This document shows positions 6,448 to 21,415 of a stretch of 21,670 bases of DNA, piece by piece. Position 1 is the first letter of the stretch, and each line of letters opens with the position of its first letter. Source of the DNA: a virus; the IMG/VR virus record IMGVR_UViG_3300026077_000465, positions 1-21,670 of that record. One strand, written 5' to 3'. The notes beneath the pieces are model-generated. The model did not search any database, was not told the origin of the DNA, and worked only from the letters and a program-made list of their open reading frames with translations. A program made the translations under genes and the position numbers.

Positions 6448-6467
6448 AACCGTCCCAAGGGGCGGTT
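6448..6467 (+). terminator. Hairpin, probable terminator after the late small-gene unit
   Basis: AACCGTCCC pairs with GGGCGGTT (one T-G pair) around a very short AA-centred loop. The stem is strong, but only TCGTTGTT follows, so the U-tract is weak. It lies between genes in different transcription units, which supports a terminator or a leader structure. Confidence 0.5.
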
Positions 6468-6471
6468 TCGT

Positions 6472-6480
6472 TGTTATAAT
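6472..6480 (+). promoter_or_regulatory. Extended -10 promoter TGTTATAAT
   Basis: A perfect TATAAT at 6475-6480 with TGT immediately before it. No good -35 hexamer is found 16-18 bases upstream, as that region is the hairpin. The start would be near 6487, 17 bases before the ATG at 6504. Confidence 0.55.
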
Positions 6481-6503
6481 AGGTACATAAAGCAAACAAC
6501 ATT

Positions 6504-8711
6504 ATGACAGTCCAACACGAAATCAAATCACAACTTGCTAAACTACTTGCTACAGAAGATATTATAGTTGAGCATAAGAAAGTTGAAACAGCAGAGTTTA
6601 ATGTACAGACTCGTGTACTTACACTTCCTATGTGGGAGAAAGCAAGTAATGGAGTGATTGATATGTTAGTTGGTCACGAAGTTGGACACGCACTCTACAC
6701 ACCTGATACTGAGTGGTGGAAGGAGGTTCAGATACCTCAACAGTTTGTCAATGTTGTTGAAGATGCTCGTATTGAGAAGTTAATCAAGAGAAGATATGAA
6801 GGACTTAACAAGACATTCTATAATGCATATCACGAACTATCAGATAAGGACTTCTTTAATATTGAGAACGCAGACCTAAGTGATTTCAATCTTGCAGATA
6901 GAGTGAACCTATACTTCAAGATTGGTCATTTTGTTGATATTGATTTTACTACTGAAGAGAATTTTCTTGTAAGTAAGATTGAATTAGCAGAGACATTTGA
7001 AGAGGTATTGAAATTATCTGAAGAACTATACAAAATGTGTAAGCAACAATTAGAGCAAGATAGAAAAGAAAGACAGGAAGTAGAGAATGATACAGGTATA
7101 GACTTAGGTGATGAGACTTTTGATGGTACACCTAAAGGAGAAACAGAAGAGTCTGGAGAGGAAGTAGATTTAGATTATCAGAAATCAGAATCTCAACCAC
7201 CAACAATCGAAGAGATTGAAGATATGATAGATGAACTCAATGGTCGTCCTCAACCAGAAAATACAGAACCAGAAGTTGAAACAATGGATGCTCTTGATGA
7301 AGCACTCAAAGATTTAATTAATAGAGGTGGTCGTGAGAATCATTACATTGAATTACCAAAGGTAGATATTGACCAAGTTGTAATCTCAAATGAAAGAGTT
7401 CATAAAGAATTTAAAGAGCATTGGACTAATTTAAACACAAGAATACAAAGTCAATTCAAACAAAATCCAAACTACTTTATTTCACTTTGTAATCCTGAGA
7501 GAATACCAGAGTCCTATGACCCATTTGAAGAATTAGATAAAGACTTCTACGCATTCAAAAAGTCTGCACAAAAAGAAGTGAATTATCTTGTCAAAGAGTT
7601 TGAGTGTAAAAAATCTGCAGGTGCATATGCTCGTGCTACCACAAGTCGCACTGGTGTTCTTGATACAACTAAACTTATTAATTATAGATTTAGTGAAGAT
7701 GTATTCAAGAAAGTTACTGTTCTTCCTGATGGTAAGAATCACGGACTTGTATTCATACTTGATTGGTCAGGTTCAATGAATAATGTAATGATGGACACAT
7801 TGAAGCAACTTTACAATCTTATCTGGTTCTGTCGCAAAGTTCAAATACCTTATGATGTCTATGCATTTTCAAATGATTATCCTAGACCTGCGATGTATGC
7901 AAATAGAGAAACTTTCTATGAACCAAAGGATATGATGGCAGAAGTAAGTAATAGTTTTGCTTTATTGAATATGTTCAGTAGTCAAACTAAGACAAAGGAT
8001 TTAGATACACAAATGATTAATATCTGGAGGTCTGCGTGTACTTTCGCTTGGAATATAAGTACACCTTACTTAGATGTACCATATGGATATAGATTATCTG
8101 GAACACCTTTAAATGAAGCAATGGTTTCTTTACATCAACTTCTTCCACAGTTTCAAAAGAAAACTGGTGCAGAGAAAGTACAATGTGTAGTTCTTACAGA
8201 TGGAGAAAGTCAACCACTTCGTTATCATCGTGAGGTTCAAAGACAATGGGAAGATGAACCATATATGGGCACAAACTACTTTGGAGAAAGTTGTGTATTG
8301 CGTGACCGTAAGTTAGGTAAGACTTATGTTTCAAAAGACTCTAGTAGATATGAATGTACAGATATGTTACTTCATAACCTAAGAGATAACTTCCCACAAA
8401 TTAATTTTATTGGTATCCGTGTTCTTCCAAGTCGGGAAGGTGGTTCATTCATTCGTAGATACTGTGGATATGAAACTGATGCATCAAACAAAATGATGCA
8501 TCGTTGGAAGAAAGAAAGGTCTTTTGCAATCACTACATCTGGGTATCACACTTACTTTGGTATGGCATCATCTGCTCTTAACAATGATAGTGAGTTAGTT
8601 GTTAAAGAAGATGCAACTAAAGCAGAAATTAAGAGAGCATTTGCAAAGAGTCTTAAAGGAAAGAAGATGAATAAGAAGATACTAAGTGAATTCATAGAAT
8701 TAGTAGCTTAA
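6504..8711 (+). CDS. HEXXH plus VWA domain protein (CobT-like, partner of the CobS-type ATPase)
   Basis: A 735-residue protein. The N-terminal part has HEVGH at residues 58-62, with a downstream VEDARIE (84/85-91), the pattern of a zinc metallopeptidase core. Residues about 180-270 are an acidic, low-complexity linker. The C-terminal half is a von Willebrand A domain with the metal-ion site DWSGSM at 420-425 and VVLTDGESQ downstream. This layout resembles CobT and other VWA partners of MoxR/CobS AAA+ ATPases, and such an ATPase is encoded at 9298. Cyanophage annotations often call it a peroxidase or CobT; neither activity is evident. A metal-dependent remodelling or proteolytic role is inferred. 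It is expressed from the promoter at 6472. Confidence 0.85.
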   Translation: MTVQHEIKSQLAKLLATEDIIVEHKKVETAEFNVQTRVLTLPMWEKASNGVIDMLVGHEVGHALYTPDTEWWKEVQIPQQFVNVVEDARIEKLIKRRYEGLNKTFYNAYHELSDKDFFNIENADLSDFNLADRVNLYFKIGHFVDIDFTTEENFLVSKIELAETFEEVLKLSEELYKMCKQQLEQDRKERQEVENDTGIDLGDETFDGTPKGETEESGEEVDLDYQKSESQPPTIEEIEDMIDELNGRPQPENTEPEVETMDALDEALKDLINRGGRENHYIELPKVDIDQVVISNERVHKEFKEHWTNLNTRIQSQFKQNPNYFISLCNPERIPESYDPFEELDKDFYAFKKSAQKEVNYLVKEFECKKSAGAYARATTSRTGVLDTTKLINYRFSEDVFKKVTVLPDGKNHGLVFILDWSGSMNNVMMDTLKQLYNLIWFCRKVQIPYDVYAFSNDYPRPAMYANRETFYEPKDMMAEVSNSFALLNMFSSQTKTKDLDTQMINIWRSACTFAWNISTPYLDVPYGYRLSGTPLNEAMVSLHQLLPQFQKKTGAEKVQCVVLTDGESQPLRYHREVQRQWEDEPYMGTNYFGESCVLRDRKLGKTYVSKDSSRYECTDMLLHNLRDNFPQINFIGIRVLPSREGGSFIRRYCGYETDASNKMMHRWKKERSFAITTSGYHTYFGMASSALNNDSELVVKEDATKAEIKRAFAKSLKGKKMNKKILSEFIELVA

Positions 8712-9297: not shown

Positions 9298-10407
9298 ATG
9301 CCTTTTGAAACAAAAATGACCTCCGAGCAAGCAATCGAAAAACTTAGAGACCTATATGGTACTGAGATTACAACTGCAGATATCAAAGCATTCTGTGCTA
9401 TGAATGATATCACTTATCAAACTGTTACTAAGAAACTACAAGATTTTAAAGTAGCAAAAGGTAAGTGGAATCTTGAGGTTACAGTTGCAGCAGTAGAGAG
9501 TATTGAGAAGTCTTTTAAATCTCCTGCAGTATTACCTGCATCAGAAAAGAATTTAGTTCCTGCAGTTGATGAAACATTTTTTAAGTTTGGAAACTTTGCA
9601 GATATCAAGAAAGTAATACAATCAAAACAATTTTATCCAACATTCATTACTGGACTATCTGGTAATGGTAAAACATTCTCTGTAGAACAAGCTTGTGCTC
9701 AGTTAGGTAGAGAACTTATTCGTGTAAACATTACTATCGAAACAGATGAAGATGACCTTATTGGCGGTTTCCGTCTTGTTGATGGTGCCACAGTATGGCA
9801 TAACGGACCCGTTATCGAAGCACTTGAGCGAGGAGCAATCTTGTTACTTGACGAAATCGACCTTGCCTCTAACAAAATCCTCTGCCTTCAGAGCGTCCTT
9901 GAGGGAAATGGAGTTTTCCTTAAGAAAATTGGCAGATTCGTTAGACCCGCCAAAGGATTCAACATACTTGCCACCGCAAATACTAAGGGTAAAGGTTCAG
10001 ACGACGGACGCTTTATTGGAACTAACGTGCTCAACGAAGCATTCCTTGAAAGATTCCCAGTAACATTTGAGCAAGCATATCCAAGTGTTAACAATGAAAT
10101 CAAACTTCTAGGTTTACACGCAGATAGAGTCGGTGTTAAAGATGCTGAGTTTGTCAAGAAACTTGTAGATTGGGCAGACATAATCCGTAAAACATTCTAT
10201 GATGGTGGTATCGAAGAGTTAATCAGTACTCGTAGATTGGTTCACATACTTCGTGCTTATAGTATCTTCAAGAACAAAGCAAAAGCAATCCAAGTTTGTA
10301 TAAATCGTTTTGACGATGAAACAAAGCAATCATTTATGGAGTTGTATGACAAAGTAGATGCTGACTTTGAAATGCCTGAGAACAATGAATCTGTGGAAAA
10401 AGTATAA
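9298..10407 (+). CDS. cobS: CobS/MoxR-type AAA+ ATPase
   Basis: A 369-residue AAA+ ATPase of the CobS/MoxR group, the gene usually named cobS in cyanophages. A small N-terminal helical region (residues 1-55) precedes the ATPase core. Walker A is GLSGNGKT at 119-126, Walker B ILLLDEID with D185-E186, sensor-1 ATANT with N228, and a candidate arginine finger in ERF (R252). In bacteria CobS works with CobT to insert cobalt into the corrin ring, but here the likely partner is the HEXXH-VWA protein at 6504, and no CobN is seen. The B12 role is therefore uncertain. Bases about 9780-10020 have higher GC and more C-ending codons than the rest. The end overlaps pebS by 23 bases. Confidence 0.88.
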   Translation: MPFETKMTSEQAIEKLRDLYGTEITTADIKAFCAMNDITYQTVTKKLQDFKVAKGKWNLEVTVAAVESIEKSFKSPAVLPASEKNLVPAVDETFFKFGNFADIKKVIQSKQFYPTFITGLSGNGKTFSVEQACAQLGRELIRVNITIETDEDDLIGGFRLVDGATVWHNGPVIEALERGAILLLDEIDLASNKILCLQSVLEGNGVFLKKIGRFVRPAKGFNILATANTKGKGSDDGRFIGTNVLNEAFLERFPVTFEQAYPSVNNEIKLLGLHADRVGVKDAEFVKKLVDWADIIRKTFYDGGIEELISTRRLVHILRAYSIFKNKAKAIQVCINRFDDETKQSFMELYDKVDADFEMPENNESVEKV

Positions 10408-11008
10408 AGATGTCCTACACGAAACATTCCCCCTCCATAATGGAGTAGGGAGTGTTTGGGCACAATGGGAAAGTAAACGTACCTTCTTAACTGCAAAGAC
10501 CTACACAACACCACTCATTATCAAATCTAGAGAGGTTGAGATATGGAGTGATAAAAGTTGTATTTACAACAATATAATCTATCCAAAGACGGGCAGTAAC
10601 TTGCCCTGTTTTGGTATGGACTTGATGGCATTCAATGAAAAGAGAGTTATCATTGTATTTGACTTTCAACATCCAGTTGAAAAATATCTTTTTTCAGTTG
10701 AGGGATTACCAAAGGCAGATAAAGAATATAGATTTTTTGAAATGGGAAATCATTTTTCAGAGAATATCTATGTTAGATATACTACCTTTGATGAAGTGGA
10801 TGAACATCTAGAAATGTTTACTAATTACTTGACAAAGTATAGAGATATGTTAGAATTAGAGAAACCCACTGGTGTAGATACTAGTGTTTACAAGGACTTT
10901 GATGCTTATATGACTAAACTCGACCCAGTTGGAGGATATCTTACTGGAAAGTTTGGTAAGGAAAAGGCAGAGAGTCTTGTAAATGATTTCTTGTTTTGCT
11001 ATGGTTAA
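10385..11008 (+). CDS. pebS: Ferredoxin-dependent bilin reductase, phycoerythrobilin synthase type
   Basis: A 207-residue member of the HY2/ferredoxin-dependent bilin reductase family. PebS makes phycoerythrobilin from biliverdin in two ferredoxin-driven steps. The stretch LPCFGMDLM, then VIIVFDFQHP, KYLFSVEGLP, RFFEMGNHFS and MTKLDPVGGY is very close to PebS of Prochlorococcus phage P-SSM2. The catalytic aspartates are D79 (FGMD) and D180 (KLDP), offset by the same 26 residues from D105 and D206 of that enzyme. The frame is open to an ATG at 10358, but the ATG at 10385 (MNLWKKY) fits the family better. PebA or PcyA-like specificity is a less likely alternative. No heme oxygenase gene is in the window. 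Confidence 0.92.
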   Translation: MNLWKKYKDVLHETFPLHNGVGSVWAQWESKRTFLTAKTYTTPLIIKSREVEIWSDKSCIYNNIIYPKTGSNLPCFGMDLMAFNEKRVIIVFDFQHPVEKYLFSVEGLPKADKEYRFFEMGNHFSENIYVRYTTFDEVDEHLEMFTNYLTKYRDMLELEKPTGVDTSVYKDFDAYMTKLDPVGGYLTGKFGKEKAESLVNDFLFCYG

Positions 11009-11596: not shown

Positions 11597-12271
11597 ATGG
11601 AATTCATGAAATTATCAGACAGCACACTTACAGTTCTTAAGAACTTCGCAGGAATCAACAACTCAATACTTGTAAAGGAAGGAAGTCAACTTCGCACTAT
11701 ATCTGTTGCAAAGAACATTTTAGCAGAAGCAGATATACCAGAGGACTTTCCTAGAGATGTTGCAATATATGACCTTAACCAGTTTTTAAATGGGTTAAGT
11801 TTACATCAAGACCCAAACCTTGATTTCACAGAGGATGCATACATTTCGATTGAAGAAGGTAAAAGAAGAGTTAAGTATTTCTATGCAGACCCACAGGTAA
11901 TTATTGCTCCACCAGATAAAGAGATTAATTTACCAACTCAAGAAGTAACTTTCCAATTAGAAAGTACATCATTAGAAAAACTTGTAAAAGCAGCAGCAGT
12001 ATACCAACTACCTGACTTATCTGTAATTGGTAAAGGTGGAGATATTCATATGGTTGTTCGTGATAAGAAGAATGATACATCGAATGAATATGCTGTTTAT
12101 GTTGGAGAGACAGACCAGACATTTGAATTTAATTTCAAGGTAGAGAATATTAAAATTATACCTGGTGCTTATGATGTTATTATCTCATCTAAGTTACTTT
12201 CTGAATTTACAAATAAACAATATAATCTTAAGTATTTCATAGCACTAGAACCAGATTCAACATTTGGTTAA
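11597..12271 (+). CDS. 45: gp45 sliding clamp
   Basis: A 224-residue homologue of T4 gp45 (228). Three copies form a ring on DNA that tethers the DNA polymerase and also activates late transcription through gp55. Matching segments are MKLSDSTLTVLKNFAGIN at the start, AEADIP, DVAIYDLNQFLNGLSL, and the end KYFIALEPDSTFG. T4 gp45 begins MKLS, so the second ATG at 11606 may be the true start; the first ATG lacks a ribosome site. The gene ends in TAATG, coupled to the next gene. Confidence 0.94.
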   Translation: MEFMKLSDSTLTVLKNFAGINNSILVKEGSQLRTISVAKNILAEADIPEDFPRDVAIYDLNQFLNGLSLHQDPNLDFTEDAYISIEEGKRRVKYFYADPQVIIAPPDKEINLPTQEVTFQLESTSLEKLVKAAAVYQLPDLSVIGKGGDIHMVVRDKKNDTSNEYAVYVGETDQTFEFNFKVENIKIIPGAYDVIISSKLLSEFTNKQYNLKYFIALEPDSTFG

Positions 12272-12462
12272 TGTATAATCTTACAGAGGAAGAATGGGAA
12301 TGTGTAAGGGTGTGTGTAAATAACGCACCCATACCTTATGACATTACAAAGAAAAAAATACCTGCTGATATCTTAGCAAAGATAGGGCAACCAACTCTAA
12401 AGAGAGAGGAAGGAATACCCGAAGTAAAATACGATTTAACACAATACGGAATATTTGATTAA
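12271..12462 (+). CDS. Small conserved-type protein downstream of gene 45
   Basis: A 63-residue protein with MYNLTEEEWECVRVCVNN at the start and a Pro/Ile-rich middle (KKKIPADILAKIGQP), ending YDLTQYGIFD. No domain recognised. TAATG overlaps at both ends show translational coupling with gene 45 and the following gene. Confidence 0.7.
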   Translation: MYNLTEEEWECVRVCVNNAPIPYDITKKKIPADILAKIGQPTLKREEGIPEVKYDLTQYGIFD

Positions 12463-12737
12463 TGAAACTGACACAAGAAATTATTGACCAAATACAAGAA
12501 GCAATGCTTCACACCAAGAAGGATGGTACTATCAACTGGAGTGATGAAGATGAAATTGAGGTGCAATTAGCAGGAACATTTGCTGCTGATAGATTTATTG
12601 TTATTAAAAACAAATCTAAAAATCCTGTTGTAAGTGCAGCACCACATCCTTACTTTGATTATGAAAAAGGTGTGTTTACTAAAGATGGCAGAGAAGAATA
12701 TATGAAAGAGCAGAAGGAATTAAAAAATGAAATTTAG
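12462..12737 (+). CDS. Small conserved-type protein, unknown function
   Basis: A 91-residue protein, starting MKLTQEIIDQIQEAMLHTKK, with a GTFAADRFIVIKN segment that looks like a beta-strand pair, and a charged helical C-terminus (EEYMKEQKELKNEI). I recognise no functional family. It is coupled to the upstream gene by TAATG, and its end overlaps the PurS-like gene by 11 bases. Confidence 0.7.
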   Translation: MKLTQEIIDQIQEAMLHTKKDGTINWSDEDEIEVQLAGTFAADRFIVIKNKSKNPVVSAAPHPYFDYEKGVFTKDGREEYMKEQKELKNEI

Positions 12738-12987
12738 TGCAAGAGTTTATATTAGATTAAGAGCGTCAGTATCTGATGCTGCAGGAAATGCTGTTAGAGC
12801 AAATGTAAATAAAGTTGCTGCTGATATAAAAGTAGACAAATTAAGAATTAATAAAATTATTGAACTCACATTTGAATGTGAAAATGAAAAAAAAGCAAGA
12901 GAGCAATTAGATATACTAAGTGATAGAATGTTTGCAAATATAGTGATTGAAGATTGGGAATATGATTTGGAAGAAATTATAAATTAA
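12727..12987 (+). CDS. purS: PurS-like subunit of phosphoribosylformylglycinamidine synthase
   Basis: An 86-residue protein, the length of bacterial PurS (about 80-85). Family signatures are in order: VYIRLRASVSDAAGNAVRAN (PurS: VYVxLKxxVxDPQGxAVxxAL), KIIELTFEC, and the C-terminal MFANIVIEDWEYDLEEI (PurS: LLANxVIEDYxYEVEEV). In bacteria PurS bridges PurL and PurQ, which make FGAM in purine synthesis. Neither PurL nor PurQ is encoded here, so it would have to act with host subunits or has another role. Recognition is by motif only. Confidence 0.78.
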   Translation: MKFSARVYIRLRASVSDAAGNAVRANVNKVAADIKVDKLRINKIIELTFECENEKKAREQLDILSDRMFANIVIEDWEYDLEEIIN

Positions 12988-12996
12988 TTGTCAGAA

Positions 12997-13212
12997 ATGA
13001 ATATTTGTGCTAAGATATGGAAGGTATGGAAGTATGCTCTTGGTTCATTCCAAGATGAAACTACCAAAAAGTATGATGATATTATCTGTGTTATCAGAAC
13101 TTTTATCTTCTTACAACTTGTGATTACCAATTGTTTTATCGTTGCAGGAAACATACGACACTGGAACGATCATTATACACAACCATATTATGAATCCTCA
13201 AGACACAACTAG
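12997..13212 (+). CDS. Small single-pass membrane protein
   Basis: A 71-residue protein starting MNICAKIWKVWKYALGSF. A hydrophobic segment at about residues 29-51 (DIICVIRTFIFLQLVITNCF...) is a probable membrane helix, and the basic, Trp-rich N-terminus suggests it stays in the cytoplasm. The in-frame TTG at 12988 would add three residues. The sequence looks like a small membrane protein common in T4-like cyanophages; its function is unknown. It overlaps the next gene by 23 bases. Confidence 0.65.
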   Translation: MNICAKIWKVWKYALGSFQDETTKKYDDIICVIRTFIFLQLVITNCFIVAGNIRHWNDHYTQPYYESSRHN

Positions 13213-14348: not shown

Positions 14349-14562
14349 AGATGACCCAAGATATTTCTCTCAAACTTCTGATGGCTCTTATGATCGTCAT
14401 CATTACAAGATAGTTTGCCCTAATAAAAGTTTTGTGGTAGAATCTTGGGATGAGGTTCAAGAATATTGGTGGAATAATTGTCGTTCACCTTGGTTTGAAG
14501 GAACAGTTATTCACGTTATTGATAAACCAAAACCAAAGAAACAATCTAAAGGTTTTAAATAA
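14332..14562 (+). CDS. Small conserved-type protein upstream of gene 44
   Basis: A 76-residue protein, MQLISKDDPRYFSQTSDG, with a WDEVQEYWWNNC segment and a basic C-terminus (DKPKPKKQSKGFK). The centre reads like a small mixed fold with many aromatic residues. No family recognised. It overlaps the upstream gene by 17 bases and is coupled to gene 44 by TAATG, so it is co-expressed with the clamp loader. Confidence 0.68.
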   Translation: MQLISKDDPRYFSQTSDGSYDRHHYKIVCPNKSFVVESWDEVQEYWWNNCRSPWFEGTVIHVIDKPKPKKQSKGFK

Positions 14563-15503
14563 TGAGTGATTTTATATGGGTTGAAAAATACAGACCCACT
14601 ACAATTGATGAGTGTATTCTACCAAAGAGTATCAAGAAAACTTTTCAAGATTTTGTTGATAGAGGAGAGATACCAAATATGCTACTGTCAGGTCCACCAG
14701 GCATAGGTAAGACCACAGTAGCAAAAGCATTGTGTAATCAACTAGGAGCAGATTACTATGTCATTAATGGGTCGGATGAAGGACGTTTTCTGGACACTGT
14801 TCGGACGAATGCAAAGAACTTCGCATCTACCGTCTCTCTTACAAGTGAGTCGAAACATAAAGTCATTATCATTGACGAAGCAGACAATACCACTTCCGAT
14901 GTACAGCTCCTTCTCAGAGCGTCTATTGAGGAGTTCTCCAAAAACTGCAGGTTTATCTTTACGTGTAACTACAAAAACAAAATTATCGACCCTTTACATA
15001 GTAGGTGTACTGTTGTTGATTTCTCGATTAATAAAAAAGACAAACCAACAATAGCAACACAATTCTTTTCAAGACTAACTAATATTCTTGAACAGGAGAA
15101 GATTGATACAGATAAGAAAGTTGTAGCACAATTAATCAATCAACATTTTCCAGATTGGAGAAGAGTGTTAAATGAGTGTCAAAGATATTCAGTTAGTGGA
15201 AAAATAGATAGTGGCATATTAGCAGCATTTTCAGATGTATCTGTAAATGATTTAATGAGGAACCTTAAGACAAAAAATTTTGCAGAAGTTCGTAAATGGT
15301 GTGTAGATAATCTTGATAATGATTCTGGTGTATTGATGAGAAGAATATATGATTCACTATATGAAGTTCTTGTTCCAACCACTATACCTGCTGCAGTATT
15401 GATTATTGCAAAGTATCAATATCAGATTGCTTTCGTTGCAGACCAAGAAATAAATTTACTTGCCTGTCTTACAGAGATTATGGTGGAGTGTGAATTTAAA
15501 TAA
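14562..15503 (+). CDS. 44: gp44 clamp loader large subunit (AAA+)
   Basis: A 313-residue AAA+ ATPase (T4 gp44: 319), which with gp62 loads the gp45 clamp. Walker A is GPPGIGKT at 44-51, Walker B IIIDEAD with D105-E106 and the DEAD-like box, and the SRC motif at 147-149 carries the arginine finger. The C-terminal half should form the collar. Its partner gp62 is not next to it but at 21035. The centre of the gene (about 14760-14940) is richer in G and C and in C-ending codons than the rest, a possible sign of recombination. Confidence 0.94.
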   Translation: MSDFIWVEKYRPTTIDECILPKSIKKTFQDFVDRGEIPNMLLSGPPGIGKTTVAKALCNQLGADYYVINGSDEGRFLDTVRTNAKNFASTVSLTSESKHKVIIIDEADNTTSDVQLLLRASIEEFSKNCRFIFTCNYKNKIIDPLHSRCTVVDFSINKKDKPTIATQFFSRLTNILEQEKIDTDKKVVAQLINQHFPDWRRVLNECQRYSVSGKIDSGILAAFSDVSVNDLMRNLKTKNFAEVRKWCVDNLDNDSGVLMRRIYDSLYEVLVPTTIPAAVLIIAKYQYQIAFVADQEINLLACLTEIMVECEFK

Positions 15504-16093
15504 TGCTTAAAGTTTTAAAAAATCCAACTACAAATTTATATCATCGTTTTAGGAATCTTGTGTTGTCTGGTGATTTTTCTTGGCATTATGGTATGTCAAC
15601 GGATACTAAAGAAGAAAATCCACCAGGTCATATGCATATGGAGTTTTATGGTCATACATTTGTAACAAGACCAGAAGCAACTTGTTATTGTGAGTCTACT
15701 TCACCATTTACAACTGAAAGCATACAAGTTTTACGGGAAATAATTGACCATAATGATTTGTTTAAAACTTATATTTTTACAAGGGCATCAGCAAACTGCA
15801 CTTTTCCAAATGAGGGTGCACAATTATCACACCCTCATGTAGACCATAATTTTCCACATTTTAATTTAATAGTTTATCTTACAGATACAGGTGGTGAAAC
15901 ATTTGTAGAGGATGAAGTTTTTAATCCTAAAATTCACGATGTGGTTTTATTCAGAGGAAAACATTATATGAAAAGACCAACCAGAGATAGAAGAATTATT
16001 TTAGTTGCAACCATATTACCAACGGATGATGATGGTTTAGAGTCAATTGGACTTCAAAGTAATCACGATAAAATATCTGCTGCAAATGGTTAG
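15503..16093 (+). CDS. 2OG-Fe(II) dioxygenase-like protein 1
   Basis: A 196-residue protein with the double-stranded beta-helix signature: HVDH (H112-x-D114), LIVYLTDTGGETF, and a distal H154 (RGKHYM) followed by an arginine pair at 163/164 that would bind 2-oxoglutarate. The facial triad is complete, so it is probably active. Such oxygenases are frequent in cyanophages; substrates are unknown, and protein or nucleic-acid hydroxylation are the usual guesses. TAATG couples it to gene 44. Confidence 0.82.
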   Translation: MLKVLKNPTTNLYHRFRNLVLSGDFSWHYGMSTDTKEENPPGHMHMEFYGHTFVTRPEATCYCESTSPFTTESIQVLREIIDHNDLFKTYIFTRASANCTFPNEGAQLSHPHVDHNFPHFNLIVYLTDTGGETFVEDEVFNPKIHDVVLFRGKHYMKRPTRDRRIILVATILPTDDDGLESIGLQSNHDKISAANG

Positions 16094-17713: not shown

Positions 17714-20476
17714 ATGTCAGAGTTTTTAAAACGTCATATCGGACCTTCAGAATCAGAGCAACGCAAAATGCTTGCTGATTTAGGTCTATCTACCATTGAT
17801 GAATTGGTAAGAGAAATTGTTCCAGATTCTATACTACTTCGTGGTGATAGTAACTTGCCAGAAGGATGTAGTGAACAAGAGGCACTTGCAGAATTAAAAG
17901 AAATTGCTTCACATAATATTGTCAAGAGAAGTCTAATCGGACAAGGATATTATGGAACAATTACACCACCAGTAATACAGAGAAATGTATTTGAGAATCC
18001 TGCTTGGTATACCTCTTACACACCATATCAGGCAGAGATATCACAAGGTAGATTAGAAGCATTATTTAATTATCAAACACTGATTACAGAACTCACTGGA
18101 TTACCAGTTGCAAACGCTTCATTATTAGATGAAGGAACTGCAGCAGCAGAGGCAATGATACTTGCATATAATCAAGGTAAGAAAAAACAATTCATAGTTG
18201 ATGATAAGATATTTCCACAAACATTAGAAGTATTACAAACTAGAGCAAGACCATTAGGTATTGATATTGTCAAGGTTGACTTAGATGCTTCAATACCAAT
18301 AGCTTTCTTTGCTGATGCTTTTGGATTTATTACACAACTACCAGACAACCACGGTAATATAAAAATTCGTGATGGAGTAATGAGACTTGCAGATGCTTGT
18401 AAGTGTATGAAGATTGCAATAGTTGATCCACTCGCACAGGTTCTAATGCAACCTGTAGGAGAAATGGGATTTGATATTGCAGTGGGTAGTATGCAGAGGT
18501 TTGGAGTACCAATGGGATTTGGCGGACCACACGCAGCATTCTTTGCAATTACAGATAAGTATAAAAGAAAAATACCTGGTAGAATCGTAGGACAATCTGT
18601 TGATGCTCAAGGTAACAAAGCACTAAGACTCGCATTACAAACCAGAGAACAACATATCAGAAGAGATAAAGCAACATCTAATATTTGTACTGCTCAAGCA
18701 TTACTCGCAAATATGGCAGGATTTTATGCTGCGTATCATGGAGCAGAGGGTCTTAAGAATATTGCGACTCGTATTCTAACTTACCGTGAAATTTTAAGAA
18801 AAGGATTATTCTGGTTAGGTATCGATGTAGATGATACTGAAGGATTTGATACGATTCGTTTTAAAAGTTTTCTTGCTGTTGAAGGATTTAATGTTCGTTA
18901 TGAAGAAGACCATACTATCATAACTTTAGACGAACTTACGACTCTTGATGAAATAAAACAGTTGTTAAATTCACAACAAGATTTGGTTAACAAAAGCGAT
19001 ACTATTGATCATATTGTTGAATCTGTAGGTAGATATAAGTGGAAAAACATACCAGAGAGAACTAAACCTTGGTTAAGGCAAGATGTTTTCAATCGTTATC
19101 ACAGTGAAACTGATATGATGAGATACATCAATGAGTTAGTATCTAAAGATTTTTCACTTGTAAATGGTATGATGCCACTTGGTAGTTGTACAATGAAATT
19201 GAATGCAGCATCAGAGTTGATGCCAGTAAGTTGGAATGAGTTTGCAAATATGCACCCATTTGCACCAGAACATCAAACTTTGGGATACCAAAGAATTATG
19301 TTTGATTTACAAGAATGGTTATGTGACATTACTGGTTTTGCTGAAGTGTCATTACAACCAAATGCAGGTTCACAAGGAGAGTATGCAGGTCTATTAGCAA
19401 TACAAGAATATCATAGAAGTAATGGGGATACAAATCGAAATGTATGTCTGATACCTACAAGTGCACACGGAACTAATCCTGCATCAGCAGTGATGGCTGG
19501 TATGAAGATAGTTCCTGTCAAATGTGATGATGAAGGTAACATAGATTTAAAAGATTTAGAAAAGCAAGCACTTATGAACTATCTTGAGTTGTCTTGTATT
19601 ATGATTACATACCCATCAACTCACGGTGTATTTGAACCAACTATCAAAGACATTTGTAGAATTGTTCACGAAAATGGTGGACAAGTTTATCTTGATGGTG
19701 CAAACTTAAATGCACAAGTATTATTAGCAAAACCTTGTGAGTATGGTGCAGATGTATGTCATATGAATTTACATAAGACATTCTGTATTCCTCACGGTGG
19801 TGGCGGTCCTGGTGTCGGTCCGATTGGTGTTGCAGAACATCTTGTTCCTTTTATGCATCACCGTGTATCAGCAGCAGTTCAAGGTAGTGCATCTATATTA
19901 CCTATCAGTTGGATGTATATAAGAATGATGGGTGCTGATGGATTAAGAAAAGCAAGTGAAATATCTTTACTTACAGCAAACTGGTTAGTACATCGTATTG
20001 AACCATTCTTCAAAGTATTATACAAAGGTAATAATGGAAGAGTTGCACACGAATGTATCTTTGATGTGAGACACTATGATGGTATCAGTGCTGAAGATGT
20101 AGCAAAGAGATTGATGGATTATGGTTTTCATGCACCTACATTATCTTGGCCAGTTACGGGAACAGTGATGGTTGAACCAACCGAAAGTGAATCTTTATAT
20201 GAACTTGAAAGATTTGGTGCTGCGATGGTAAGTATTCGTAGAGAGATTGATAAGAATAAAGATATCTTGAAAAACTCACCTCATACAGCAAGGGTTGTAA
20301 GTTCGGACAAATGGGACTATAATTATAGTCGTGAAGAGGCAGCGTTTCCCGCCAATCAAACTAATAAGTTTTGGCCAGCGATATCACGAATCGATAATGT
20401 TTACGGGGATCGTAATCTTGTTTGCTCTTGTGAAAATTATTTTGATGATGTAATTAATGAAAAAAATACAGTTTGA
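17714..20476 (+). CDS. gcvP: Glycine dehydrogenase (decarboxylating), P-protein of the glycine cleavage system
   Basis: A 920-residue, apparently complete GcvP (cellular enzymes are about 950). The P-protein decarboxylates glycine with pyridoxal phosphate and passes the aminomethyl group to lipoylated H-protein. Visible parts: the N-terminal [31 protein letters not shown] and [14 protein letters not shown]; the C-terminal half with [13 protein letters not shown] and [10 protein letters not shown]; and the lysine that binds PLP, K688, in [20 protein letters not shown]. No frameshift or stop is seen, and its base composition is like the neighbours'. H-, T- and L-proteins are absent, so host partners would be needed. 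It is one base after the 55-aa gene; its end overlaps the next gene by 20 bases. Confidence 0.95.
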
Positions 20477-21035
20477 CGATTGTATTTGTCACAGTAAGAT
20501 AAAAAATCATTATAAAATAAAGGATGAAATTTTATCTGAAATTGATAAGTGCGATGATGATAATCTAAATGCTGTTGATTCATATCATACAGATAGTATT
20601 TCAAAATTAGATTGGATTAAATCTAGTGATACTGATAGACCTTGGGTTAAAATATTTTTACCAGAGTTTTGTGAGGATGTGAAAGAAATAGTTTCAAGTA
20701 TGTGTTATAATAGAATTAATATAAAACAGATGTGGTATCAACAATACTTAGAGGGTGATACTCACGGTTGGCATATTCATGGTCAACATTACACTGGAGT
20801 TTATTATCTAGAATTTCCTGATGGATGTTCTAAAACTGAGGTTTGTTCTCCTTATAATTTAAAAACAAAACAAATTGATGCTGTTGAAGGTGATTTAATT
20901 GTATTTCCTGCACATTGTATTCATCGAGGACTACCAAATAAAAAAATTAGAAAAACTATTGTATCTTTTAATTTTGATGTAATCGCTAACACAAAGGATG
21001 GATTACCTGCCTTAAATCTTAACTTATTAAAATAA
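20457..21035 (+). CDS. 2OG-Fe(II) oxygenase-like protein 2, with HxH in place of HxD
   Basis: A 192-residue protein resembling phage 2OG-Fe(II) oxygenases. The core [20 protein letters not shown] is followed by [17 protein letters not shown] and [10 protein letters not shown]. The proximal motif reads H106-I-H108 rather than the usual HxD; the distal His is H156, and R165 is the likely 2-oxoglutarate-binding residue. The missing Asp may change metal binding, or the family may differ from the classical one. The ATG lies inside the gcvP end (20-base overlap), and TAATG couples it to gp62. Confidence 0.75.
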
Positions 21036-21415
21036 TGGAACTTAAAGATTGGTTAAATTCAATAAATCAAACAAAGAAAAACTTAATAGATAATGACCCT
21101 TCGATTGAGAAAGATTATCCACCATATGTAATCAATCGTTGTTTTTCTGGACACTTGGATGCGGTTCTTTTTGCTAATGAAATGAATAGGTATAATTTCT
21201 TACCAAAGAAGATGCAATACGACTTTTATATAAATACCCTCAGAACTAAGAAGAGATTCTCTCCTTGGCTTCGTAAGGATATGATCAAAGACCTTGATTA
21301 TGTGAAACGTTATTATGGTTATAGTAACGAAAAAGCAAAACAAGCTTTGAAGATTCTGACAAAAAAACAACTCAACTTTATAAAATCTAAATTTGATACT
21401 GGAGGAGCGAAATGA
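21035..21415 (+). CDS. 62: gp62 clamp loader small subunit
   Basis: A 126-residue protein with [38 protein letters not shown] and KKMQYDFYINTLRTKKRFSP, as in the short gp62 of T4-like cyanophages (T4 gp62 is longer, 187 residues). It completes the clamp loader with gp44, but that gene ends about 5.5 kb upstream. It ends in ATGA, overlapping regA, as in T4, where 62 and regA are neighbours. Confidence 0.85.
   Translation: MELKDWLNSINQTKKNLIDNDPSIEKDYPPYVINRCFSGHLDAVLFANEMNRYNFLPKKMQYDFYINTLRTKKRFSPWLRKDMIKDLDYVKRYYGYSNEKAKQALKILTKKQLNFIKSKFDTGGAK
21401..21407 (+). promoter_or_regulatory. Strong ribosome binding site of regA
   Basis: GGAGGAG at 21401-21407, four bases before the ATG at 21412. 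It is one of the strongest in the window and decides the start. Confidence 0.7.

Follow-up and report, generated by a model that had tools for sequence, protein, structure and literature searches.

The window analysed here is a 21,670-base stretch of viral DNA (IMG/VR record IMGVR_UViG_3300026077_000465) that makes up the record in full, and all searches of the source phage cover exactly this stretch. Its DNA matches Prochlorococcus phages, Synechococcus phages, and marine viruses from single cells; the source is a T4-like cyanophage, a virus of marine cyanobacteria. The purS gene lies between the genes for the sliding clamp gp45 and the clamp loader gp44 (Table 1). Single-base overlaps link gp45 to the two short open reading frames (ORFs) that follow it, and the second of these runs into purS. 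Because the ORFs from gp45 through purS overlap, purS is probably read within the gp45 transcription unit; the original prediction of a PurS homologue in a sliding-clamp operon thus agrees with the layout of the reading frames. The antisense strand of the purS stretch is interrupted by stops. Promoter-like sites in the window number 14, where shuffled sequence would give 15.6, so there is no excess; terminator-like sites number 2, against 1.2, which is nothing notable. PADLOC gave no match for purS or for the two ORFs preceding it.

Table 1. Features of the window, with positions counted from its first base.
Feature	Position	Strand	Details
Ferredoxin-dependent bilin reductase	10358-11008		PF05996, E 7.2e-17; further auxiliary gene
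gp45 sliding clamp	11597-12271	+	PF09116, E 2.9e-12; phrog_223, E 3.8e-87
63-aa ORF, function unknown	12271-12462	+	phrog_37679; start shares one base with gp45 stop
91-aa ORF, function unknown	12462-12737	+	phrog_475; adjoins purS upstream, overlapping it
purS	12727-12987	+	86 aa; ATG 12727, stop 12985-12987; overlaps preceding ORF by 11 bases
71-aa hydrophobic ORF	12997-13212	+	phrog_1679; widespread in cyanophages, no tie to purS
gp44 clamp loader	14562-15503	+	phrog_168, E 1.2e-135
Lone GcvP (glycine dehydrogenase)	17714-20476	+	920 aa; TIGR00461, 1252 bits; 73% identity to P-HM1
gp62 clamp loader A subunit	21035-21415	+	PF16790, E 1e-7

The family of the next ORF, phrog_1679, occurs in 212 phage records. 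A fixed partner gene 3' of purS was considered and rejected, as the next genes differ among phages. In ACG-2014e and ACG-2014d, for example, the ORFs 3' of purS (L174 3276-3479 and L176 3276-3470) are labelled phosphoribosylformylglycinamidine synthase but match phrog_618 (function unknown), not PurS.

Two closely related IMG/VR contigs, L010 (235,761 bases) and L008 (64,151 bases), share the gene order gp45, two small ORFs, purS, gp44, dam, gcvP, and gp62. At the protein level, their gp45 is 97% identical to that of the window and their PurS only 80-82%; PurS therefore changes faster than gp45. Immediately before its purS, the L010 contig carries a 514-aa tryptophan-halogenase-like ORF (6455-7999; PF04820, E 8.5e-107) that is absent from this place in the window. 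The GcvP of L010 (13091-15849) is broken into four tblastn pieces in shifted frames, where L008 and a third contig, L014, each give one piece; the split may reflect an assembly error or decay. The final 636 bases of the window match both L010 and L008 at 93%, and a PurM gene (TIGR00878, over its cut-off) begins approximately 1.6 kb (L010) or 2.1 kb (L008) past the start of gp62. Judging from these relatives, PurM is therefore very likely to be present in the source phage too, about 1-1.5 kb beyond the end of the window.

Assignment and divergence of the phage PurS

The window protein scores above the cut-offs of two PurS profiles (PF02700: 63.6 bits, E 2e-17, cut-off 22.2; TIGR00302: 55.8 bits, cut-off 39) and matches phrog_1282 (PHROG 1282; E 6.5e-30). 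The profile check suggested in the original prediction was thus passed with both, but the score with NF004630, the strict NCBI equivalog for PurS, fell below the cut-off (66.4 bits against 75). This profile also missed five of six other phage PurS proteins scanned, the sixth being that of S-SCSM2R with 75.2, and gave 98.4 bits for one Prochlorococcus PurS. In view of the NF004630 score, the protein is classed here as a homologue within the PurS family rather than as a demonstrated functional equivalent. The residues invariant across 34 aligned phage and host PurS sequences (L11, V15, D17, G20, A22, R40, K43, N71, V73, and E75) are all present in it, and its RxGK stretch reads RINK (G42 is N).

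Among proteins of solved structure, the best sequence matches are the PurS proteins of B. subtilis, M. jannaschii, T. maritima, and others. AlphaFold2, supplied with the window protein and 19 viral relatives, returned a best model with a mean pLDDT of 89 (68.9-79.7 for the remaining four of five) and a predicted strand-helix-strand-helix-strand fold. PurS chains fill the first 11 ranks in Foldseek (TM-score 0.59-0.72, rmsd 2.9-4.4), and in VIA the PurS entries reach Z 8.8-9.8 over 79-82 residues (rmsd 2.6-3.4), with the next entries at 5.8 or below. In the model, the PurS fold is complete, extending across all of its approximately 80 residues.

Selection and descent were assessed with 32 phage PurS sequences (the window, 27 from IMG/VR, and 4 from named phages) and 22 host sequences, the latter comprising 20 from Prochlorococcus, Synechococcus, Cyanobium, and uncultured cyanobacteria and 2 from Microcoleus. 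The truncated sequences L029 and L030, as well as L128, a PurS from Pelagibacteraceae that a tblastn search with the window protein had missed, were excluded from the tree, the dN/dS analysis, and the column counts. Across 373 non-independent pairs of the 32 phage genes with 0.1 < dS < 1.5, the median dN/dS was 0.196 (range 0.004-0.46); for the window it was 0.084 against its nearest relative, L002, and 0.077-0.317 against the 16 relatives giving a finite value. Phage purS is thus under purifying selection, which together with the retained predicted fold supports a working protein.

In a midpoint-rooted tree built from a short alignment (94 columns), all 32 phage sequences form one clade against the 22 host sequences, on a long branch of their own and with support of 99/99. 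Removal of the long branches L145 and L037 and use of a simpler model gave the same split of 31 phage and 21 host sequences at 100/100. As to a host origin, the median identity of 43% between phage and picocyanobacterial PurS, close to the 42% between picocyanobacteria and Microcoleus, points to no particular donor. Several host-invariant or near-invariant columns are altered in all 32 phages (L16 to S or D, P18 to A or S, E21 to N, and G31 to A or S), P72 is I, V, T, or E in 31 of them, and G42 is N in 26, including the window.

The separate clade and these altered columns, together with the frequent company of PurM, would suit a remodelled subunit: phage PurS would displace host PurS and alter the working or regulation of PurL-PurQ, for instance its nucleotide need or glutamine coupling, or would hand FGAM to phage PurM. 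This reading is rather unlikely, as several of the columns also vary in solved PurS proteins and function need not change; 8j3n has T at P18, M. jannaschii PurS has Y at G42, and B. subtilis PurS has T at P72 and S at E21. The phage proteins are, moreover, no further from picocyanobacterial PurS than the latter is from that of Microcoleus. Since solved PurS proteins vary in this way, the changed columns indicate divergence, not loss of function. A more specific version is likewise unlikely: cyanophages would have captured PurS alone, perhaps once, and evolved it into a takeover subunit that occupies the place of host PurS in the host PurL-PurQ enzyme. The enzyme would then escape host regulation, or be docked to phage PurM so that FGAM, which is unstable, is passed on directly.

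Partner enzymes in phages and hosts

As the original prediction had stated, the window holds no PurL or PurQ; tblastn with the Prochlorococcus proteins finds neither. Likewise, tblastn found neither in 29 IMG/VR PurS loci, two of which (L003 and L004) yielded PurM. The L010 and L008 contigs, the closest relatives, also gave neither. Some of the phage records scanned with profiles are fragments, and both sets include P-HM1, which lacks PurS: the PurQ profile matched none of 9 records, and the PurL profile exceeded its cut-off in none of 12 (7 and 5). Four weak PurL profile matches all fall within PurM genes. Among 50,697 phage records searched by tblastn (E up to 1e-3), Prochlorococcus PurL and Prochlorococcus PurQ each matched 28; no PurL match was named Prochlorococcus, Synechococcus, Cyanophage, or Marine virus, and no PurQ match was cyanophage-named. 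Thus, no partner pair of PurL and PurQ was found in the same genome across the window, the 29 loci, and the profiled records.

Two records from these searches are of separate interest. Microcystis phage MaAM05 (MW495066.1, 241791-243860) has an annotated purL that is 47.5% identical to the Prochlorococcus PurL query; the PurS tally contains no Microcystis record. In OR845008, listed as a Staphylococcus "phage," genes for PurM, PurL, and PurQ and a weak match to PurS lie inside 6 kb on one strand, an arrangement that would be expected of a bacterial pur operon.

A tblastn search with the window PurS (E up to 10) returned 166 of the 50,697 phage records, of which 164 are named Synechococcus, Cyanophage, Prochlorococcus, or Marine virus; none of these 164 matched host PurL or PurQ. 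The other two are Staphylococcus records, the listed one matching at E 0.2. The gene is therefore not new: it is cyanophage purS, PHROG 1282, and ordinary for cyanophages. Its phrog_1282 match, the 164 cyanophage-named records, and purifying selection place it within this known auxiliary metabolic gene. Among the best 60 of the 166 records, 35 carry the label "5(,5)-phosphoribosylformylglycinamide amidotransferase" or purL/PurL, 18 are hypothetical, 5 are unannotated, 1 is called phosphoribosylformylglycinamidine synthase, and 1 PurS. In the five records that were opened (P-SSM7, P-SSM2, Syn33, ACG-2014e, and ACG-2014d), the purL/PurL-labelled gene is the small PurS.

In the literature, one study reports purS in myo-cyanophages, with high abundance in oxygen-deficient zones and an association with LLV Prochlorococcus (PMC9983427), and another lists it as the synthase subunit among auxiliary genes (PMC10436341). 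A 2016 review lists purH, purL, purM, and purN in cyanophages (PMC5083919). Since the purL-labelled genes opened proved to be PurS and no cyanophage-named record matched PurL or PurQ, the "purL" of this review is probably the same purS gene. The main text of PMC4022391 names none of purL, purS, and purM; PMC5082946 does not mention purL, purine, purM, or glycine, and PMC11360552 does not mention purS, purL, or gcvP. The literature searches returned no paper that names cyanophage, purS, and purL together, or that joins cyanophage, phosphoribosylformylglycinamidine, and "purine biosynthesis."

Host genomes were reached via GcvP loci. Of 28 such genomes, 22 yielded PurS; two Prochlorococcus single-cell genomes and four non-cyanobacteria did not. 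PurL exceeded its cut-off in 10 of 15 genomes; the misses were two gammaproteobacteria with a long PurL (open frames of more than 1,300 aa) and three Prochlorococcus genomes that are probably incomplete. PurQ did so in 8 of 10, both misses being Prochlorococcus. Picocyanobacteria thus encode separate PurL and PurQ, as far as these genome sequences indicate, and purS stands directly before purQ in all eight host genomes in which both were found. Separate PurS, small PurL, and PurQ, with a PurS homodimer required for efficient function, are described in two papers (PMC3815217, PMC3261824).

A frequent companion of phage PurS is PurM, which matches 199 phage records, 171 of them cyanophage-named. 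In 22 hand-picked phage records, 7 carry both PurS and PurM, 2 PurS only, 1 PurM only, and 12 neither (Fisher p 0.0015, for records that are related and were partly chosen for PurS). PurS stands without PurM in S-SCSM2R and in one ACG-2014d record (158,300 bases), though other ACG-2014d records have PurM; PurM stands without PurS in S-RIM44. Three of four PurS-bearing IMG/VR contigs encode PurM, and the fourth is a 79-kb fragment without it. The PurM match of ACG-2014e (KJ019054.1, 182356-183288) holds one in-frame TGA. In P-HM1 (L036), a gene labelled purM (15344-16003) has ferredoxin as its product (T4-GC 171), and one MED4-213 record has a purM-labelled gene beside GcvP; the PurM profile found no PurM in the P-HM1 or MED4-213 genome, and the label may have been carried over from a neighbour. 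Sullivan 2010 counts purM among the P-HM1 genes missing from P-HM2 (PMC3037559).

GcvP is a looser companion. That GcvP and PurS together reflect a focus on purine precursors, as the original prediction suggested, is plausible but loose. GcvP lies inside the fetched stretch in 10 of 29 IMG/VR PurS loci, but P-HM1, P-HM2, and MED4-213 carry GcvP without PurS. With this, and with GcvT found in none of eight phage records searched, the idea that GcvP and PurS form one module was rejected. The lone full-length GcvP is a second case of a single subunit of a multi-part host enzyme being carried alone.

The proximity of purS to gp45 and gp44, with several cyanophages carrying it in the gp45-gp44-gp62 region, raises another alternative, namely that the PurS fold was co-opted for a non-purine task, for example as a protein-binding module of the replication complex. 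Cellular PurS, a homodimer, has been put forward as a potential module for protein-protein interactions (PMC3815217, PMC3261824). The position of the gene, however, is not fixed: it follows gp44 in Syn33 and S-SCSM2R and regA in P-SSM2, lies a few genes past baseplate genes in P-SSM7 and ACG-2014e, and is found near psbD, PurC, and PurM in S-CAM8. Because it moves in this way, and because phage and host PurS share ten invariant columns, such a role is quite improbable.

Proposed role of PurS and comparison with known systems

Phage PurS is probably an auxiliary metabolic gene product that supplies host PurL-PurQ with a subunit, raising flux from FGAR to FGAM for phage DNA synthesis. The FGAR amidotransferase (FGAM synthase) has three parts, of which PurS is the small, non-catalytic one. 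In this mechanism, phage PurS would be made alongside the replication genes and would join host PurL and PurQ. If PurS is the limiting part, the increased amount of active PurL-PurQ-PurS complex would convert FGAR to FGAM faster, and PurM, encoded by the phage in close relatives in addition to the host's own, would form AIR and thereby feed purines into phage DNA.

Subunit supply appears to be the best explanation of the family assignment, the predicted fold, the place in the operon, the lack of phage PurL and PurQ in the searches, the presence of both in hosts, purifying selection, and co-occurrence with PurM. Counterpoints are the NF004630 miss, the long branch, the altered host-invariant columns, the two PurS records and the 79-kb contig fragment without PurM, and the one PurM record without PurS.

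The opposite effect, in which phage PurS would bind PurL or PurQ non-productively as a decoy and slow host purine synthesis, is highly improbable. It would accord with the non-catalytic subunit being found alone in the phages searched, but related phages also encode enzymes that catalyse steps of purine synthesis, which makes a block unlikely: besides PurM, S-CAM8 has PurS, PurC, and PurM annotated inside 3 kb, with PurC two genes past PurS, and PurN was found in 2 of 8 records searched (P-SSM2 and P-SSM7). Nor would a DNA-making lytic phage obviously gain from such a block. Thus, of the two roles originally envisaged, a boost to host FGAM synthase fits purifying selection, PurM co-occurrence, and separate host PurL and PurQ, and the decoy gained nothing in its favour. 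The main value of the analysis lies in a correction: the "purL" labels on the small PurS mislead, and PurS-bearing cyanophages appear to carry just the small subunit of FGAM synthase. That phages carry a non-catalytic subunit of a three-part host enzyme in turn raises a testable question, i.e., whether PurS is limiting in FGAM synthase during infection or phage PurS alters the enzyme.

Compared with known systems, the window gene is closest to cyanophage purS (PHROG 1282) of P-SSM2, P-SSM7, Syn33, and the ACG-2014 phages, with which it shares the family, the kind of phage, and often the gp45-gp44-gp62 region. It falls within their size class (84-107 aa in 32 phage sequences), and its PurS is about 43-60% identical to the copies in named phage records; like the window, P-SSM2, P-SSM7, Syn33, and S-SCSM2R have no PurQ and no PurL over the cut-off. 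The G42N change of the window is common to 25 of 27 IMG/VR sequences and is not seen in L026, L027, P-SSM2, P-SSM7, Syn33, or S-SCSM2R. With the solved PurS proteins of B. subtilis, T. maritima, and T. thermophilus (1t4a/1twj, 3d54, and 2cuw; 3d54 is by its title a PurLQS complex), the phage protein has fold and sequence family in common, at 22-35% identity in the structural alignments. Unlike the phage sequences searched, these organisms encode PurL and PurQ themselves; the profile controls for both were positive in B. subtilis, T. maritima, and a Thermus. Picocyanobacterial PurS (Prochlorococcus, Synechococcus, and Cyanobium) belongs to the same family, with a common stretch around SDRL-ANPVIEDW and up to approximately 47% identity. 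In the eight host genomes noted above, purS adjoins purQ, whereas phage purS has no neighbouring purQ and forms a separate clade.
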